Shown here: one piece after another, positions 7,708-56,210 of the stretch | Numbering within the stretch: position 1 is the stretch's first letter | How the letters are laid out: each line of letters begins with the position of its first letter | Assembly (NCBI GenBank): GCA_016213945.1 | Contig: JACQZF010000039.1 | Coordinates: forward strand, 1 to 64,000 | Direction: 5' to 3' | Source: Nitrospirota bacterium | GTDB lineage: Bacteria > Nitrospirota > Thermodesulfovibrionia > UBA6902 | Length of the DNA stretch: 64,000 nt | Notes under the pieces: generated by a model | The model's input: only the letters and a program-made list of their open reading frames with translations | Told to the model about the DNA's origin: nothing | Databases searched by the model: none | Translations under genes and position numbers: made by a program

Positions 7708-9135
7708 ATGAGCACAGCGATTAAAGAGACTCAGAAGATGATAGAGGAAGTTCTGGATGCGTATCCTGAGAAGGCGAAGAAGGACAGGGCCAAACATTTA
7801 GCAGCCAATGACCCGACGGGGCAGTGCAGCACCTGCCAGGTTAAGTCCAATATAAAATCCCGTCCCGGTGTAATGACGGTCAGGGGATGCGCGTACGCAG
7901 GAGCAAAGGGTGTTGTCTGGGGGCCGGTCAAGGACCAGATCACTATCAGTCACGGCCCTGTAGGCTGCGGCCAGTATAGCTGGTGGTCGCGCCGGAATTA
8001 TTACAACGGCCAGACGGGTATCGATACATTTGGAACAATGCACATTACAACGGACTTTCAGGAGAAAGATATTGTTTACGGCGGCGACAAGAATCTTGAT
8101 GCGGCGCTGCACGAATTAAAAGGACTGTTTCCGCTTGCAAAAAGCATGGGCATACTCTCGGAATGCCCGGTCGGTCTTATAGGAGACGACATTGAAGCGG
8201 TGTCTAAAAAAGCTGAAAAGGAATTTGCCATGCCCATCGTGCCGGTGAGGTGCGAGGGATTCAGGGGTGTGAGCCAGTCGCTCGGTCATCACATCGCCAA
8301 CGATACCATAAGGGACCACATCCTCGGCAAGGGGCTGCTTGAAAAATCTACTCCCTATGACGTCGCGCTCATCGGAGATTACAACATCGGCGGAGACGCA
8401 TGGGCTTCGAGAAAGATGCTTGAGGAACTCGGTCTCAGGGTCATTGCACAATGGACCGGTGACGCCTCGATAAATGAGATGGGCATTGCTCACAAGGCAA
8501 AGGTGAACCTTGTTCACTGCTACCGCTCAATGAACTACATATGCAGGCACATGGAAGAGCAGTACGGCATCCCGTGGACGGAGTTTAACTTCTTCGGCCC
8601 GACAAAGATATACCAGAGCCTCAGAAAGATCGCCTCGTACTTTGATGACAGTATCAAAGAGAAGGCTGAGAAGATGATTGAAAAATACAAGCCGGCGATG
8701 GACGCGGTCATCGAAGAGTTTAAACCGGGACTTGAAGGCAAGAGGGTAATGCTTTATGTGGGAGGCTTGAGGCCAAGGCATACTATCGGAGCATATGAAG
8801 ACCTCGGTATGGAGGTCGTTGCTTCAGGATATGAATTCGGCCACAGCGACGATTATAAAAGGACCTATCCTGAGATGAAAGAAGGCGCTGTGATCATGGA
8901 CGACGCCACGCTTTACGAGCTTGAAGAGTTCACCAGAAGGCTCAGCCCTGATATGGTCGGCTCAGGGATAAAGGAGAAATACTCCTATCACAAGCTTGGC
9001 GTGCCTTTCAGGCAGATGCACTCGTGGGATTATTCGGGCCCGTATCACGGTTTTGACGGTTTTCCTGTTTTTGCAAGAGACATGGACATGACGGTAAACA
9101 GCCCCACGTGGGGGTTAATACGGAGGAAGAAATGA
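7708..9135 (+). CDS. nifD: nitrogenase molybdenum-iron protein alpha chain
   Basis: Alpha subunit of dinitrogenase, holding the FeMo cofactor and half of the P-cluster. The 475 residues show the P-cluster cysteines (QCSTCQVKS region, [18 protein letters not shown] and [11 protein letters not shown] blocks), the cofactor Cys in [13 protein letters not shown] and the cofactor His in [16 protein letters not shown]. There is no large internal insertion of the clostridial kind. A GGAGG site precedes the ATG. The stop overlaps the nifK start (ATGA). Confidence 0.98.
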
Positions 9136-10637
9136 AGATAAAAGATCACAATGAACTATTTCAGGAGCAGGAATATATCGACCAGTTTGAGAGGAAGAAG
9201 GAGTTTGAAAACTGTCCCACGGCTGAGGAAGTGCAGCGCATTGCGGAATGGACCAGGACAGCGGAGTACAGGGAATTAAATTTCAAAAGGCAGAACATAA
9301 AGATCAATCCTGCAAAGGCATGTCAGCCTCTGGGCGCGGTATTCTGCGCCTCGGGTTTTGAAGGGACACTGCCCTTTGTGCAGGGAGCGCAGGGGTGTGT
9401 AGCTTATTTCAGGAGCCATCTGAGCAGGCACTTTAAAGAGCCGATGACAGCCGTATCCACTTCCATGACTGAAGACGCCGCGGTATTCGGAGGATTGAAC
9501 AACATGCTCGAAGGATTAGAAAACGCCTACACTCTTTATCATCCGAAGATGCTTGCGGTCTGCACCACATGTATGGCAGAGGTGATCGGCGATGACCTGA
9601 ATGCATACATACGGACGGCGCGGGAAAAAGGGGTTATCCCTCAGGAATTGCCGGTCCCCTTTGCGCACACTCCGAGTTTTGTCGGCTCGAATATCACGGG
9701 ATACGACAATATGATGAAGGGCATACTCACTGCTGTTACAGCAGGCAGGAAAGGCGAGCCGAACGGAAAGATAAATATCATCCCCGGCTTTGATACATAT
9801 ACGGGAAACTACCGGGAAATGAAAAGGCTTCTCGACATAATGGAAGTTAAGCATACGATACTTGCAGACGTGAGCGATATTTACGATTCTCCCAATTCCG
9901 GGGAATATAAATTGTATCCGGGCGGCACGCCGCTTGCGGATGCGGCGGATTCGATCAATGCTTTGGCAACCATTGCGCTCCAGAAATATTCGACTTCAAA
10001 GACCATGGACTACATCGGTAAAGAGTGGAGTCAGAGTGCAGTAGCGCTTCCACCAATAGGCATAAAGAATACGGACAGGTTTTTTGAAGAGTTAAGCAAA
10101 ATTACAGGCAAGCCGGTCCCGCAGGAAATTGAGAACGAAAGGGGACGCGCAGTGGATGCGATGATAGACTCGCATCCATACGTTCACGGGAAGAGATTTG
10201 CCCTTGTAGGCGACCCTGACCTGCTTCTTGGCTTGATAAGTTTCTTATTGGAGATGGGCGGGATACCTGTTCATGTCGTCTGCACAAACGGTGATAAAAA
10301 ATTCCTGGAAGACGCCGAAGCCATCCTGAGTGAAAGCCCGTTTGGTCGGGAAGGCAAAGTTTATACCGGCAAAGATATGTGGCATCTGCGGTCATTGATG
10401 TTTACGGAGCCTGTGGATTTTCTCATCGGCAATTCATATGCGAAGTTTCTCTGGCGTGATACCGGGATCCCTCTTATCAGGCTTGGGTTCCCGCTGTTTG
10501 ACAGGCACCACCTCCACAGATATCCGATCATCGGCTATCAGGGAGCGCTGAATCTGGTGGGCCTGATTGTCAATACGGTGCTTGATGAAATGGACAGAAA
10601 GACGATGAACACAACGAGCTTTGATGTGATACGGTAA
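9132..10637 (+). CDS. nifK: nitrogenase molybdenum-iron protein beta chain
   Basis: Beta subunit of dinitrogenase, completing the P-cluster. The three P-cluster cysteines are visible ([17 protein letters not shown] and [11 protein letters not shown]). The start is placed at the ATG that overlaps the nifD stop, because GGAGGAAG lies just before it; an earlier in-frame start at 9108 would lie deep in nifD and lacks such a site. The product is 501 residues. Confidence 0.98.
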
Positions 10638-10829: not shown

Positions 10830-13682
10830 ATGTTGACCAACATAGACAAATTAACACATAGTGGATGTGAGCGGGAGCAGAAGGACAAGGTCTGCCGCTT
10901 GCGCGGAGGAGAGTCCTGCGCCTTTGACGGCGCGATGATCGTGCTCCAGCCCATTGCGGATGCGGCGCACATCGTTCACGGCCCGATTGCATGCTGCGGG
11001 AATTCATGGGAAGGACGGGGAACGTTGTCCTCGACCGGCAATTTGCACAGAATGGGTTTTACAACAGACATAAACGAAATGGACATTGTCTATGGCTCTG
11101 AGAAAAAGCTGCACAAGGCCATCGTTCAGACTTATGAAAAGGTAAGGCCGAAAGCGATATTTGTCTATGCAACATGCGTAAGCGGATTGATCGGCGAGGA
11201 CATTGAATCCGTATGTAAAAAGGCTGAGAGTGAATTGGGCGTCCGCGTCATTCCGGTGAACGCGCCCGGCTTTGTCGGACCGAAGAATCTTGGAAACAGA
11301 ATAGCAGGCGAGGTATTGCTTGATCATGTGATAGGGGCGGGGGAAATGCCTAAAAATCCCCCCGTACCCCCCTTTGTTAAAGGGGGGACCTCTCACATTT
11401 CCCCTTTGAAAAAGGGGGATGAAGGGGGATTTATAAATTTAATTGGTGAATACAATATTGCCGGCGACCTGTGGCTTGTCGAACCGGTCTTGAAGGCTGC
11501 CGGGATACGGATCCTCTCAAGGATCACAGGCGATTCGACTTTTGAAGAAATAACATACGCACACCGGGCAAAGCTGAATGTAGTTGTTTGCAGCCGTGCG
11601 CTGATCAATGTCGCAAAAGAAATGGAGAAGCGATACGGCATTCCTTATATTGAAGTTTCGTTTTTCGGAAAGACGGAGATGTCAAAGGCGTTGAGGCGAA
11701 TAGCCCAAAAAGTGCAGAAGTCAGAAGTCAGAAGTCAGAAGTCGGAAGCAGCCCCAGGCTTCAGCCTGCAAGACAGCGTTGAGGCTATTATTATAAGAGA
11801 AGAAAAACAGCTTGCTAAAAAGCTTAAAGCATATTCTCACCTGAAAGGTAAAAAGGCGGTGCTCTACACCGGTGGGGTGAAGAGCTGGTCATTTATCTCC
11901 GCGCTTCTTGACTTGGGGATTGAGATAGTTGCTGTCGGAACAAAGAAGAGCACGTTTGAAGATGAGGAGAAGATGAAAGATATCCTTGGCGAGGATGCGC
12001 TGCTTGTTGAAGATGTGACGCCGAAAAATCTGTTGAAGCTGATGAAGGAGAAGAATGCCGACATTCTTGTGGCAGGCGGAAGAAATCAGTATCTCGCTAT
12101 AAAGGAAGGTTTCCCGTTTATAGACATAAATCAGGAAAGGCATACAGCGTATGCTGGCTATGAAGGGCTGGTTAATTTAGCGGAGCAGATAAGCAACAGC
12201 GTCCGGTTTTATGAAGAGCATGAGTCATATGTGTCTTATAAGACTTATGCCGCACAACGCCCGGAAAAGAGTGTGGTTATTAACCCCCTCAAACATTCCC
12301 AGGCCATCGGCGCTGCGATTGCGTTTCAGGGGATCAATAATTCAATCCCGGTCATTCATGGGGCGCAGGGCTGCACGTTTTTGGGAAAAGTGCTTTTGAC
12401 AAAACATTTCAGGGAACCGATTGCGCTGCAAAGCACAAAGCTGTTTACTGAAGACGTGGTGATGGGCAGTGATGAAAATCTTGCTAAGACCATAGAGGGA
12501 ATTATAGAGAAAAACAACTCCGATGTTATCGGAGTTCTGACTTCAGGACTTTCGGAGGTAAAGGGAGATGACGTGAAGAAAGCTGTCAGCAGTCAGCGAT
12601 CAGCAGTCAGCGATCAAAACAAAGAATGTTTCATGGTCCATGTCTCAACTCCTGATTATGAAGGCGGACTTGAGACCGGGTATGCGAATGCAGTGGAGGC
12701 AGTCATTGAGTCAATAATTTCTAATAGGGAAGCCACAAAATTTATCATTCCCGCTTGTCGGGAATCTTCTTTTAAGAATGATCCCGGACAAGCCGGGATG
12801 ACAGAACAGAAATGTTCATATGTCCGCACTAATCGCCTTATCAACGTCCTTGCCGGCTCACATCTTACACCTGCTGATTTTACCGAGCTAAGGGAAATTA
12901 TTGAAGCATTCGGGCTCAGGCCGGTGATACTTCCCGACCTCTCCGCGCTTGACGGCAGCAGGCAGGGGCTTTCCGCGCTTGCAATCGGCGGCACAAAAGT
13001 AGACGATATAAGGTGGATGTCACAGTCTGCATTCACCTTTGCCATTGGCGCAAGCATGGGGTCTTCTGCAAAGCTTTTGCATGAAAAGTTCGGCATTGAA
13101 TATTCGGTAATTGAAAGCTTGTCGGGGTTGAATGATACGGACACCTTTATACAGACACTTTCATTTCTTAGCGGCGCTCCGGTCCCTGCCAGATATGAAC
13201 GGCAGAGGAGAATCCTGATTGACGGGATGAGGGATGCGCATTTTTATTTCGGAAGCAAAAAGATTTGTCTTGCCATTGAGCCTGATATGGCGGTCCAGAC
13301 TTCAAGATGGATCAGTGAGATGGGCGCGGAGATAACGCTTGCGGTCATTCCTCAGAACGCAGAGAGCGCAGGGAATATTCTTGCAAAAGAAGTGGTTGTC
13401 TCCGACCTGTTCTCGATAGATGGTGAGTTTGACCTGCTCATTTCAAACTCTCATGCGGAAGACACGGCAAAGAGACTGGGTATTCCGCTTTATCAGATGG
13501 GGTTTCCTGTTTATAAGATCATAGGGAACAGTTCAAAGATCACTATTGGATACAGAGGGACACTTGCGATGATAAATGAAGCGGCTAATCTGCTTTTACT
13601 TGAAAAACATGTATCTGTTTCAAAATCCCCCTTCACCCCCCTTTTACAAAGTGGGGACAAAAAAAGGAGAGTAACGAGATGA
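10830..13682 (+). CDS. nifEN: nitrogenase cofactor scaffold, NifE-NifN fusion
   Basis: Scaffold on which the NifB cofactor is converted to FeMo-co. One 950-residue chain covers NifE (about 1-470) and NifN (about 480-925). NifE signatures are CRLRGGESCAFDG, GPIACCGNSWEGRG, YATCVSGLIGEDIE, the NLIGEYNIAGDLW block, VVVCSRALINVAKEM and LYTGGVKSWS...GTKKST. NifN shows INPLKHSQAIGAA and IHGAQGCTFLGKVLL. Start chosen at ATG 10830 (GTG 10827 is also possible). Four stretches are encoded by genomic repeats (about residues 174-201, 293-307, 584-595, 638-658) and a fifth forms the C-terminal tail. The stop overlaps the next gene (ATGA). NifE and NifN are normally separate genes. Confidence 0.95.
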   Translation: MLTNIDKLTHSGCEREQKDKVCRLRGGESCAFDGAMIVLQPIADAAHIVHGPIACCGNSWEGRGTLSSTGNLHRMGFTTDINEMDIVYGSEKKLHKAIVQTYEKVRPKAIFVYATCVSGLIGEDIESVCKKAESELGVRVIPVNAPGFVGPKNLGNRIAGEVLLDHVIGAGEMPKNPPVPPFVKGGTSHISPLKKGDEGGFINLIGEYNIAGDLWLVEPVLKAAGIRILSRITGDSTFEEITYAHRAKLNVVVCSRALINVAKEMEKRYGIPYIEVSFFGKTEMSKALRRIAQKVQKSEVRSQKSEAAPGFSLQDSVEAIIIREEKQLAKKLKAYSHLKGKKAVLYTGGVKSWSFISALLDLGIEIVAVGTKKSTFEDEEKMKDILGEDALLVEDVTPKNLLKLMKEKNADILVAGGRNQYLAIKEGFPFIDINQERHTAYAGYEGLVNLAEQISNSVRFYEEHESYVSYKTYAAQRPEKSVVINPLKHSQAIGAAIAFQGINNSIPVIHGAQGCTFLGKVLLTKHFREPIALQSTKLFTEDVVMGSDENLAKTIEGIIEKNNSDVIGVLTSGLSEVKGDDVKKAVSSQRSAVSDQNKECFMVHVSTPDYEGGLETGYANAVEAVIESIISNREATKFIIPACRESSFKNDPGQAGMTEQKCSYVRTNRLINVLAGSHLTPADFTELREIIEAFGLRPVILPDLSALDGSRQGLSALAIGGTKVDDIRWMSQSAFTFAIGASMGSSAKLLHEKFGIEYSVIESLSGLNDTDTFIQTLSFLSGAPVPARYERQRRILIDGMRDAHFYFGSKKICLAIEPDMAVQTSRWISEMGAEITLAVIPQNAESAGNILAKEVVVSDLFSIDGEFDLLISNSHAEDTAKRLGIPLYQMGFPVYKIIGNSSKITIGYRGTLAMINEAANLLLLEKHVSVSKSPFTPLLQSGDKKRRVTR
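11353..11432 (+). repeat. CCCC-rich palindromic element in frame in nifEN
   Basis: CCCCCCTTTGTTAAAGGGGGG and CCCCTTTGAAAAAGGGG lie side by side. They encode a Pro/Gly/Lys-rich insert just before the conserved NLIGEYNIAGD block of NifE. Confidence 0.85.
11710..11750 (+). repeat. AGAAGTC tandem repeat in frame in nifEN
   Basis: About five AGAAGTC units encode [10 protein letters not shown] in the variable helix after the conserved LRRIAQ segment of NifE. The same family flanks lptE and lies in thiE. Confidence 0.8.
12581..12614 (+). repeat. TCAGC repeat in frame in nifEN
   Basis: CTGTCAGCAGTCAGCGATCAG units encode AVSSQRSAVSD after the KGDDV motif in the NifN half. Confidence 0.75.
12745..12802 (+). 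repeat. TCATTCCCGCTTGTCGGGA palindrome in frame in nifEN
   Basis: A full copy of the TCATTCCCG...GGGATGAC element. The reading frame gives PACRESSFKNDPGQAGMT in NifN, before TNRLINVLAGSHLTP. Confidence 0.85.
13622..13660 (+). repeat. CCCC-rich element forming the NifEN C-terminus
   Basis: AATCCCCCTTCACCCCCC followed by CTTTTACAAAGTGGGG. It encodes the last non-conserved residues (SKSPFTPLLQSGDK) of NifEN. Confidence 0.7.
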
Positions 13683-27529: not shown

Positions 27530-30370
27530 ATGATGCCTTCCAATAAGGAAATATTTCAACATATAGCGGAGACTTCCCGCTCTTCCTCCTATCCCAAAAG
27601 GGCCGAGACAAACCTGCACAGGTTTATGGAAGATCCATCCGGGAAGGAACGCTTTCTGCCTTATCTGAAAGATGTGGCGAAACTCTTTGCCGCAAGCCAG
27701 TTCCTTTCGAATTACTGCATATCAAACCCTGATGAACTTTTTACCGCGTTAAAAGAGCTGAAGACGCCTGTCACAAAAAAGTTTCTCAGCGTAAAGGCCA
27801 AGACCGGACTCGCATTTGCTGAAGGGCAGGATTTAAGCGATATATTGAAGAGGCTCAGGCTGTTTAAGAAAAGTCATCTCCTTAGAATCACCCTGAGAGA
27901 TATCACAGGCGAGACGGATACGCTTTCCTCTATGGATGAGCTTACCTGCCTTGCCGAGTTTGTAATTGATTTCGCGCTTGACTGTTCTATGAAAATTAAT
28001 TCCCGGCATTTCGGAGAGCCTTCAGGCGAGGGGCTTACGCTTATTGCCCTCGGCAAGCTTGGAGGCGAGGAGCTTAATTACAGCTCCGACGTTGATCTTA
28101 TCGCTGTCTATGACGGAGAAGAAGGGCAGACTTCAGGGACAGTGAGTCCTTCAGGCGTTCTGATGAACAGGATAGGCAGCAGCGAATTTTATTTTAAGGT
28201 CATGGAACTTTTCAATAAGATGCTCTCAAGGAATACCGGGGACGGGATCGTTTACAGGGTTGATCTGAGGCTGAGGCCCCAGGGGGAAAAGGGCGAGGTG
28301 GCGCTCCCTCTCAGTTCATACAAAGCATATTATGAAACATGGGGGCGCACGTGGGAGCGCATGGCGCTTATAAGGGCGCGTCCCGTGGCAGGAAATATGC
28401 GGCTCGGCAAGGCGTTCATGGAAACAATCGGACCTTTTGTCTGGGAGAAGACTATGGATTATTCCGGGATAGAAGAGATAAAGGCGCTTAAGAAAAAGAT
28501 AGATTCCTCCTTTTCAAAGGATGACATAAAGCGGGGATACGGGGGGATAAGAGAGGCGGAATTTTTTATTCAGACCTTTCAGCTTATATACGGCCCTGAA
28601 CACAGCGGCCTCAGGACGCACAGGTTCTTAAACGCGATACAATCACTGAGATGGCTTGGGATGGTGCCTGAAGACGAACTTGTCACGCTCCGGGAAAACT
28701 ATCTGCACCTCAGGCGCGTTGAGCATCTCCTTCAGATGAAAGACGACCTGCAAACGCATTCCCTTCCGTCATCAGAAGACGATTTAAAATCCCTTGCGGT
28801 AAAATCAGGTTTCCCGTCCACTGACAAATTTCTTTCTGACTTGCGCCTGAGGAGAATGAAGATAAGAAACATGTACAACTCCCTGCTTGGCACGGAGGAA
28901 GACGTTCATGCCGAGGCGCTTACATTGCTTGAAGGCGAACTCAGCGATGATGAGCTTTCGGAATATCTCTCTTTCAGAGGCATGAAAAACCCTCCGGCAG
29001 GTTTAATGAATCTCAAGGGAATGCGGGAGCAGTTTGAATTCTTTAAGACACAGCGTGAACGCACGGTGATGAGAAAGGTAATTCCCATGCTCATTGAAAA
29101 GGCGCTGAATGCGGAAAGTCCGGACAGGGCGCTGAAAGGGCTTGTGAGCTTTTTTACTGTAATGGGCGTCAAAGAAACATATCTTACAGGCTTTACCGAG
29201 AGAAAGGAATTGCAGGACGGCATCATTGAAATATTTTCCCTGAGCACGAACCTCACGCGAATTTTTCTAAGCAACACCCGCTACCTTGATCTGCTCCTTG
29301 AGGGGAACATCATAAGAAAGACGCTCAGCAGGACAAGGGAGGAACTGAAACGAAGCATACCCGGCGAGAATTTCGAGACAGGAATTGCCGAATATAAAAA
29401 TGTCGAAGAGATCCGCCTCGGAAGTTTTTTTCTCATGCACGTCATAAAGGTAAATCATCTAATAAGATGCCTCTCGCATCTTGCGGAGGCGGTAATCGGG
29501 ATGATTATGGAGAATTGTAGGGACAGTTCGCGGACAGCTACCCCCCTTATTCCCCCCTTGCCAAGGGGGGACAAAAGGGGGGTAGGTTTCGCAGTGCTCG
29601 GCATGGGAAAGCTCGGCAGCAGGGAGATGACGTTCGGTTCCGACCTCGATATCATTTTCCTCGCTGAAAGCCCCGATGAATTAAAAACTGCAGAAAAGAT
29701 ATTGAAGACATTAACCGCGTACACGGACAAGGGCATAATCTACAACGTGGACATGAGGCTGAGGCCGGACGGCATCAAAGGCGCGCTTATAAACAACCTG
29801 GAAGGTTACAGGAACTACTATCTCAAGAGCGCGCACCCGTGGGAGATCCAGGCGCTTCTGAAAGTGAGGCCGATAGCCGGAGACATGGACCTTGCAAGGT
29901 CGTTTGCTGAAATGGCGAGGGAAGTTATTTTAAAAAGAGGCAGGGAACTGAAGAGAGAAGATATAAAGGCGATGCGCGAGAGGATAATGAAAGAGCTGTC
30001 TCACGAGCCGCAGGGAGTGGATGTAAAACTCGGGCCGGGCGGAATAGAGGAGATAGAATTTTTCGTCCAGTGGCTTCAGTTACACCACGCAAACGCGTCC
30101 CCTGAGATACTTGTGCAGGACACGGCATCCGCAATACGGCGTCTCATGAAGAAGGGAATCCTTCGTCCTGAAAACGGGAAGACCCTTTTAAATGCCTATG
30201 AATACCTGAGGACGCTTGAGACCCTTATGCGATTGAATGAAGAACACGTGATCGTTGAAGATTCGGATTTCACAGAGTTGGCTGGAATTTTCATGGGACA
30301 TAAAAATAAGGAAGAGTTTTTGAAACATCTGAAGGCGATAAGAAGAAATGTTTTGGAAGTGTTGTTGTAG
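27530..30370 (+). CDS. glnE: bifunctional glutamine synthetase adenylyltransferase GlnE
   Basis: Adds and removes AMP on the GS tyrosine in response to PII state. The 946 residues contain two nucleotidyltransferase domains: the deadenylylase half (GKLGGEELNYSSDVDLIAVYD) and the adenylylase half (LGMGKLGSREMTFGSDLDIIF), each with its GxG...DxD core, joined by the regulatory linker. A repeat-encoded segment (29539-29585) lies just before the second active site. The start at ATG 27530 or 27533 has no strong ribosome site. Confidence 0.96.
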   Translation: MMPSNKEIFQHIAETSRSSSYPKRAETNLHRFMEDPSGKERFLPYLKDVAKLFAASQFLSNYCISNPDELFTALKELKTPVTKKFLSVKAKTGLAFAEGQDLSDILKRLRLFKKSHLLRITLRDITGETDTLSSMDELTCLAEFVIDFALDCSMKINSRHFGEPSGEGLTLIALGKLGGEELNYSSDVDLIAVYDGEEGQTSGTVSPSGVLMNRIGSSEFYFKVMELFNKMLSRNTGDGIVYRVDLRLRPQGEKGEVALPLSSYKAYYETWGRTWERMALIRARPVAGNMRLGKAFMETIGPFVWEKTMDYSGIEEIKALKKKIDSSFSKDDIKRGYGGIREAEFFIQTFQLIYGPEHSGLRTHRFLNAIQSLRWLGMVPEDELVTLRENYLHLRRVEHLLQMKDDLQTHSLPSSEDDLKSLAVKSGFPSTDKFLSDLRLRRMKIRNMYNSLLGTEEDVHAEALTLLEGELSDDELSEYLSFRGMKNPPAGLMNLKGMREQFEFFKTQRERTVMRKVIPMLIEKALNAESPDRALKGLVSFFTVMGVKETYLTGFTERKELQDGIIEIFSLSTNLTRIFLSNTRYLDLLLEGNIIRKTLSRTREELKRSIPGENFETGIAEYKNVEEIRLGSFFLMHVIKVNHLIRCLSHLAEAVIGMIMENCRDSSRTATPLIPPLPRGDKRGVGFAVLGMGKLGSREMTFGSDLDIIFLAESPDELKTAEKILKTLTAYTDKGIIYNVDMRLRPDGIKGALINNLEGYRNYYLKSAHPWEIQALLKVRPIAGDMDLARSFAEMAREVILKRGRELKREDIKAMRERIMKELSHEPQGVDVKLGPGGIEEIEFFVQWLQLHHANASPEILVQDTASAIRRLMKKGILRPENGKTLLNAYEYLRTLETLMRLNEEHVIVEDSDFTELAGIFMGHKNKEEFLKHLKAIRRNVLEVLL
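29539..29585 (+). repeat. CCCC-rich palindrome in frame in glnE
   Basis: ACCCCCCTTATTCCCCCC followed by TTGCCAAGGGGGG and AAAGGGGGGT. It encodes TPLIPPLPRGDKRGV immediately ahead of the conserved FAVLGMGKLGSREM motif. Confidence 0.85.
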
Positions 30371-33514: not shown

Positions 33515-33568
33515 TCGAAATCCCCCGCAGCTTTCTTCGGGGTTTAAACAGTTTGTTGTTTTTTTGTT

Positions 33569-33626
33569 GTCATTGCCGCTTGCCGGCAATCCTTCTTCAG
33601 AAAGATTCCGGACAAGCCGGAATGAC
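33569..33626 (+). repeat. GTCATTGCCGC...CGGAATGAC element after glnA2
   Basis: Complete copy; central ATCCTTCTTCAGAAAGAT hairpin. Confidence 0.85.
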
Positions 33627-33678
33627 AATGTTCATAGTCAGTCGGTCTTTATACCTTGCATTTCAGATAGGAAGAGTT

Positions 33679-54708: not shown

Positions 54709-55443
54709 TTATTTATCTTTTACTCTTTCAATTATCTCTTTTGCTTTTCTCCGAATATCATCCGCTCCCAAAATCTCTGATATCATCGCTACTCCGTAAG
54801 CCCCTGCGTTTTCAGCTTCCTTCACCCTGTGACTTTTTATCCCTCCTATTGCGAATACAGGGACCTTTATCTTTCTGCTGACTTCTTTCAGGGTGTCAAG
54901 CCCCAGAGGTTGTCCGTATTTTAATTTCGACGGCGTTTTATAAACAGGTCCCAATGTTATAAAGTCGGCCCCGGCCCTCTCAGCCTCTTTTGCCTCTTTC
55001 AAAGAATGTGTTGAGACGCCGATCAAAAAATGTGACGAGTGACGAGTGACGAGTGACGAGTAAACGGCCTTTCTCACCGCGTCCGCGGGAATGCTGTTTT
55101 GCGTAAGGTGGACCCCGTCAGCGCCAACGGCCAGCGCAATATCGAACCTGTCGTTAATGAAAAGCTTTGCATTATATTTTTCAGTCAGTTCTCTCATCTT
55201 GTATGCCATTTTTAATAATTCGCGTGTCTCCAAATCTTTCTCTCTCAATTGTATCGCCTTCACCCCGCTTTTTAATGACTGCCTGACGGCGGTCAATAAG
55301 TGAGAAGTGGGAAGTGAGAAGTTAGAAGTTTCTCTGAGCTGTTTTCTATCAGTAATCAGATAAAGTCTAAAGCCCAAAGCCGGGAGTCTGTGTTTTGTTT
55401 TTTTACTTCTGACTTCTGACTTCTGACTTCTCACTTGCTTCAC
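54709..55443 (-). CDS. thiE: thiamin-phosphate synthase ThiE with repeat-encoded inserts
   Basis: Joins HMP-PP and thiazole phosphate. Core blocks: [67 protein letters not shown] and FAIGGI. The start is taken as the GTG that overlaps the thiG stop (GTGA), giving 244 residues; the longer open frame overlaps thiG. Three segments come from genomic repeats: residues about 3-14, 37-48 and 127-137. The native enzyme is about 210 residues, so the excess matches these inserts. Confidence 0.88.
55031..55063 (-). repeat. GTGACGA tandem repeat in frame in thiE
   Basis: About four GTGACGA units; encodes [10 protein letters not shown] before FLIGVSTHS. Confidence 0.75.
55299..55331 (-). repeat. AGAAGTGAGAAGT repeat in frame in thiE
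   Basis: Minus-strand copy encodes [12 protein letters not shown] between LYLITDRKQ and the AIQLREKD block. Confidence 0.75.
55402..55437 (-). repeat. AGAAGTC repeat at the start of thiE
   Basis: Encodes the first residues ([11 protein letters not shown]) of the frame, straight after the thiG stop. Confidence 0.75.
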
Positions 55444-56210
55444 AGCATTCCCTCTATCGGGCTGCTTGCCGTGGCATATAGTTTCCTCGGCATCCTGCCT
55501 GCCTTGTACGCGAGGCGTCCTGCGATCACTCCGTGCTTCATGGCCTCTGCCATCGCGATCGGGTCTTTTGCCCCGGCTATGGCGGTATTCAACAATACGG
55601 CATCGCATCCGAGTTCCATTGCAAGCGCGGCATCTGAGGCAGTTCCCACCCCGGCGTCAACTATGATCGGGACCTTTGCCTGTTCAAGTATTATTTTTAT
55701 GTTGTAAGGATTTCTTATCCCAAGCCCGGAGCCGATCGGCGCGGCAAGCGGCATTACAGCGGCAGCACCGGCGTCCACGAGCCTCAACGCCATAACAGGA
55801 TCGTCGTTTATGTAGGGCAGAACAATGAAGCCCTCTTTCGCTAATATCTCCGTCGCCTTCAGTGTGGCGCAGTTGTCGGGGAAGAGGGTTTTTTCATCGC
55901 CGATGACCTCAAGCTTGATGAGGTCTGAAACCCCTGCCTCCCTCGCAAGCCGCGCGTATCTCAACGCGTCTTCCATCGTGTAGCAGCCTGCGGTGTTCGG
56001 CAGGATCCTGTATTTCTTCGGATCAATGTAGTCAAAAAGGTTTTCCGACTTCCTGTCGAAGATATTCACCCTTCTCACTGCTACCGTAACAACGTCAGCG
56101 CCTGACGCCTCAATGGCCTTTCTCGTCTCTTCAAAGTCTTTATACTTTCCTGTCCCGACCCAGAGACGGGATTTGAATTCAATGCCTTTGATGATCAATT
56201 TATCGTCCAT
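55440..56210 (-). CDS. thiG: thiazole synthase ThiG
   Basis: Forms the thiazole phosphate of thiamin from DXP, dehydroglycine and ThiS thiocarboxylate. The 256 residues show the Schiff-base Lys block ([17 protein letters not shown]) and [16 protein letters not shown]. The start is 56210, behind GGAGGAACGT; the frame upstream is repeat sequence. It overlaps thiE by 4 nt. Confidence 0.96.

Follow-up and report, generated by a model that had tools for sequence, protein, structure and literature searches.

Different short repeats occupy the same loops of NifEN in a Nitrospirota bacterium and its relatives

We found that the fused nifEN gene of a Nitrospirota bacterium carries five segments derived from short repeats of four families, each in frame, and that dozens of related species have different repeats in the same loops of the protein. 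The gene lies in the window, that is, the whole 64,000-nucleotide stretch of contig JACQZF010000039.1 (assembly GCA_016213945.1) that was analysed, and its features are collected in Table 1. In what follows, G000 is the host genome of the window, other G and L numbers are genomes or loci of relatives, and C numbers are contigs. We consider it probable that promiscuous short repeats insert widely, that they persist within genes only in permissive loops, and that some segments then move between species. The high load of nifEN is best explained by such permissive loops, and not by a peculiarity of nifEN in G000.

Table 1. Repeat-related features of nifEN and the adjacent nif genes (positions in the window)
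Feature	Position	Strand	Residues	Description
nifD	7708..9135	+		adjacent structural paralogue
nifK	9108..10637	+		adjacent structural paralogue
nifEN fusion gene	10830..13682	+		950 aa; NifE residues ~1-458, linker, NifN ~479-925
S1, CCCC-rich palindromic element	11353..11432	+	175-201	NPPVPPFVKGG...PLKKGDEGGF; nhmmer family
S2, tandem AGAAGTC heptads	11710..11748	+	294-307	TRF period 7, 5.4 copies
Small palindrome GCAGCCCCAGGCTTCAGCCTGC	11748..11769	+		in the second segment, abutting the S2 heptads; direct reading
E-N linker	12207..12263	+		many relatives have heptads or palindromes here; repeat origin not clear in G000
S3, tandem TCAGCAG (TCAGC) heptads	12581..12616	+	585-596	VSSQRSAVSDQ; TRF
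S4, TCATTCC palindrome (TCATTCCCG palindrome)	12744..12804	+	639-659	IIPACRESSFKNDPGQAGMT; nhmmer family
CT, half CCCC element forming the C-terminal tail	13622..13659	+	932-944	SPFTPLLQSGD; nhmmer

The reading frame is uninterrupted over its whole length, and both halves were recognised by their own models, with 589.9 bits for NCBIfam nifE (cut-off 505.1) and 455.2 bits for nifN (cut-off 326.8). Two fused domains, each above its equivalog cut-off, identify the product as NifEN, the bifunctional FeMo-co scaffold; the model of the fused protein, PRK14477, gave 984.5, below its cut-off of 1229. Positions of the cluster ligands of A. vinelandii NifEN, named in PMC13031127, were carried over by alignment. 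The O- and L-cluster ligands C30, C55, C116, C254, Q435 and C515 are invariant in 34 NifEN sequences, and C13 is likewise invariant among the known cluster ligands. The NifEN core of near relatives differs at 35-51% of fourfold sites and at 14-17% of residues, and the gene is therefore under purifying selection. With its ligands invariant and the amino-acid divergence of its core low against this fourfold change, nifEN looks functional, which bears out what an earlier sequence-only reading had claimed of the gene and of its retained cofactor and cluster residues. That reading had also described five repeat-derived segments from four families; all were found where it placed them, and the families are multicopy in the host genome.

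In NifE, S1 occupies the loop that joins helix 152-167 to strand 201-205, and S4 the equivalent loop of NifN. S2 falls between NifE helices 281-302 and 313-338, while S3 is found at the end of NifN helix 582-595, ahead of strand 601-607. Two features had escaped the earlier description: the small palindrome next to S2, which occurs also in L007, L008 and L046, and the E-N linker, where relatives have a sixth hot spot of repeats. Structure prediction had been proposed as a check on the segments. AlphaFold2, run on 34 sequences, gave a model of moderate confidence (mean pLDDT 73, pTM 0.52) which, in the PDB, is most similar to GmNifEN, a natural fusion (9i0g, E 1.2e-78). In this model S1, S4, the linker and the tail have pLDDT below 50 (35-39 in S1), residues 639-666 around S4 are disordered, and S2 and S3 sit at helix ends. 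The predicted placement in disordered linkers or loops, or at helix ends, suggests that the inserts are surface-exposed.

About 674 kb of the host genome was sampled, part of it biased toward contigs with insert matches. In a 402-kb sample, nhmmer detected 20 CCCC and 28 TCATTCC copies. Period 7 dominates the tandem arrays of G000; such arrays reach 9.7 per 100 kb in the biased sample and 4.4 in the less biased one, against 0 in shuffled DNA. All the families are rarer in coding than in non-coding DNA: TCATTCC drops from 43.5 to 0.9 per 100 kb (about 48-fold), the heptads from 20.6 to 8.0 and CCCC from 8.0 to 2.4. A search of Rfam returned no match at E 0.1.

The sequence-only reading had regarded so many elements in one essential cofactor gene as extraordinary. 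In the 674-kb sample, 40 of the 473 ORFs of at least 150 aa hold at least one element, and nifEN, with five, is the most loaded (1 of 473); a MurD-like ligase (513 aa, G000:C35:19012-20550) has four heptad (period-7) hits and several further ORFs have three elements, counts that are approximate because genes were called simply as longest ORFs. An internal element was found in 2.7% of ORFs of this size on the less biased contigs versus 9.3% in the biased set; on the former, 5 of 183 ORFs contain a strictly internal element, one apiece. nifEN is an outlier, though with company: its load is the highest sampled, as the claim implied, but the presence of several elements is unique neither to this gene nor to this genome, as is seen in chorismate synthase (AroC), MurD, CobD/CbiB, TolC-type and other ORFs, and the nifEN of relatives.

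Elsewhere in the window, a CCCC element lies in a glnE-like gene (29542-29575), a TCATTCC palindrome in the gene of a DUF4384 protein (33568-33627), and two heptad segments within the domain of a ThiE-like gene (54712-55608, minus strand). The N-terminus of the ThiE ORF had suggested a gene fusion, an idea that was abandoned since its initial ~60 residues resemble an out-of-frame reading of the upstream sequence, and an open frame of 24,059 aa on C79 was rejected as masked N. On contig C18 of G000 (28-30 kb and 70-78 kb; L079, L081), many of a series of neighbouring genes (TolC-type, aminotransferase, CobD/CbiB and others) have two or three elements.

Many genomes from the genus, family and order of G000 encode NifEN, as do named Nitrospirae/Thermodesulfovibrionia MAGs. 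The alignment of these proteins, a comparison that had also been suggested beforehand, has a nearly gapless core, and variation falls in four internal loops, the E-N linker and the C-terminus. The S1 loop has 13 residues in outgroups and from 16 to 43 elsewhere, many of these loops being built of differing repeats; G000, G001 and G004 cluster on the core tree, yet have three different S1 sequences. At S3, relatives have heptads with other units. S4 is occupied by the TCATTCC palindrome in G000 and G007, by a related palindrome with a different reading in G037, by CCCC palindromes in L037 and L060, and by heptads in other relatives. The half-element of the C-terminus was seen in only one other NifEN, that of G004. 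On a core-only tree, the minimum numbers of element-state changes are 9 for S1, 19 for S2, 19 for the linker, 18 for S3 and 11 for S4, hence at least 76 for the five loops together in 45 Thermodesulfovibrionia/Nitrospirota orthologues; these counts are indicative, since similarity thresholds decided the element types and some nodes of the tree are weak. We counted 91 strong repeat-like windows in 49 sequences, and 88 of them fall within six sites that make up 10.3% of residues, a concentration test that is not fully independent because the sites were partly defined from the same data, related sequences also not being independent trials. In L071 (9070-9310), an in-frame stop lies inside the S3 segment with the frame open on either side, and such insertions can thus also interrupt the gene, unless the stop records an error. 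In the S1 loop of L040, the insert ends GGGGACATTCCC...GGGACAGTCCCC resemble the GGGGACACATCCC ends around a Y1 transposase gene on contig C9 of G000 (L124).

The same window thresholds were applied to NifEN and to comparison genes from the same loci. In 34 NifEN orthologues there are 52 heptad and 16 palindrome windows, versus one heptad and one palindrome window in 23 orthologues of NifD and none in 25 of NifK. An equivalent inter-domain loop exists in both of these structural paralogues, and S1 of NifE and S4 of NifN align to it. The NifB-like gene has no heptad and one palindrome window, and the same holds for two GlnB-like genes combined. In chorismate synthase (AroC) from 30 genomes, all 36 windows fall inside three loops. 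This enzyme shows the same pattern, and therefore the phenomenon is not specific to nitrogen fixation; nifEN is one instance of a way in which loops evolve across the clade. The G000 chorismate synthase (G000:C18:20442-21692; L079:442-1689) has heptads and a CCCC element in the three loops, and the type of repeat varies among relatives.

These observations are in line with a model in which several short-repeat families, two of them palindromic and MITE/REP-like, plus the tandem heptads, would insert or arise genome-wide. Within genes, a copy would survive only when it can be read in frame and when the loop that receives it is structurally permissive. If only such copies survive, NifEN, chorismate synthase and other conserved enzymes with several loops would for that reason gather, at any one loop, elements that differ from species to species. 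The inserts would most likely be tolerated, neutral, unstructured surface segments, much like genomic parasites sifted by the structure of the protein, and the elements in the loops probably turn over fast. As to how the elements would have been mobilised, no transposase tied to any of the families was identified, and neither a target-site duplication nor a same-species empty site was seen.

Short-tract recombination also seems to carry some loop segments from one species to another. The S4 element is nearly identical in G000 and G007 despite a core fourfold divergence of 51%; the sequence to its left has diverged to the same degree as the core, and the element is missing from G001 and G004, which are nearer to G000 than G007 is. 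Additionally, L055 and L064 have a 171-nt S2 segment in common with 94% identity, their cores being 29% diverged. These shared S4 and S2 tracts are most simply read as short-tract exchange between species. A further-reaching possibility, which we find rather unlikely, is that the loops behave as exchangeable cassettes, refilled from the repeat pool of the genome and exchanged across species through short conversion tracts for which the repeats supply the homology; if true, this would be a clade-wide mechanism of loop diversification.

Overall, shared elements changed at 9 of 91 fourfold sites and the cores of the same species pairs at 893 of 1720, a comparison in which only little-changed elements, either young or constrained, are recognisable as shared. 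Constraint on the RNA or the peptide could alternatively account for this low divergence. In this sense, the inserts may have been domesticated, the loops having gained a function (partner docking, flexibility, or regulation of translation by mRNA hairpins) and being kept by selection, and the persistence of the S2 heptads in G000, G001 and G004 would agree with it. Nevertheless, unrelated elements fill the same loop in sister species, the outgroup loops are short and the sequence content of the inserts is not conserved, and we judge domestication to be improbable. Replication slippage in hypervariable low-complexity loops, by which the segments would have arisen in place and not by insertion of genomic repeats, could expand heptad arrays and would suit the predominance of period 7; however, it would not be expected to produce palindromic elements of 60-80 nt that match dispersed families, and the heptad units of one site differ among relatives while those of G000 match units found genome-wide, which makes it likewise an improbable origin. 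An assembly or binning artefact is hardly credible, even though most of the genomes are metagenome-assembled and repeats are prone to misassembly, because each of the five segments recurs at the same place in the independently assembled nifEN of at least one other species and therefore none of them is an assembly error.

Insertion into permissive loops, which we favour, would turn these genomes into an experiment, set up and repeated by nature, that tells in NifEN and in chorismate synthase where the loops of an essential enzyme tolerate insertion; NifEN is a target of nitrogenase engineering. In the literature searched, most subscription papers lying outside its reach, there is no report of repeats of this kind in Nitrospirota. 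The cyanobacterial STRR are tandem heptanucleotide (7-bp) repeats dispersed through the genome, to which our heptads can be likened by description, both being dispersed tandem 7-bp units; here, however, they occur in another phylum and many are in coding frames. REP elements are moved by RAYT/Y1 transposases. G000 and most relatives have Y1_Tnp genes; no link between a Y1 transposase and the nifEN families was found, the Y1 gene on C9 not being immediately flanked by them. REP elements are short palindromes too (PMC3733652). The enterobacterial ERIC/RU MITEs and the Neisseria Correia elements are likewise small non-autonomous repeats that are sometimes fused in frame to ORFs, but they are longer and mainly intergenic, and the portion available of PMC2229807 does not mention recurrence at one loop across species.

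By analogy, the closest known kind appears to be the Rickettsia palindromic elements (RPE), palindromes of 105-146 bp (Ogata et al., 2000, as reviewed in PMC2229807). According to this review, RPE and the protein-coding palindromes of Wolbachia are multicopy short palindromes lying in frame within conserved genes whose function is kept, and an RPE-bearing guanylate kinase is translated and active (PMC2229807). The CCCC and TCATTCC families are likewise multicopy short palindromes in frame in conserved genes, while the heptads are not palindromic. The Nitrospirota elements, of about 35-80 nt, are shorter than the RPE range given there (PMC2229807); moreover, they belong to several families including the non-palindromic heptads, occur in another phylum and recur independently at the same loops. 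In this way, the known range of protein-coding repeats reaches beyond Rickettsiales into an unrelated phylum. Because several element families are involved and recur at identical loops, one can test whether insertions of this kind are neutral or have been recruited.
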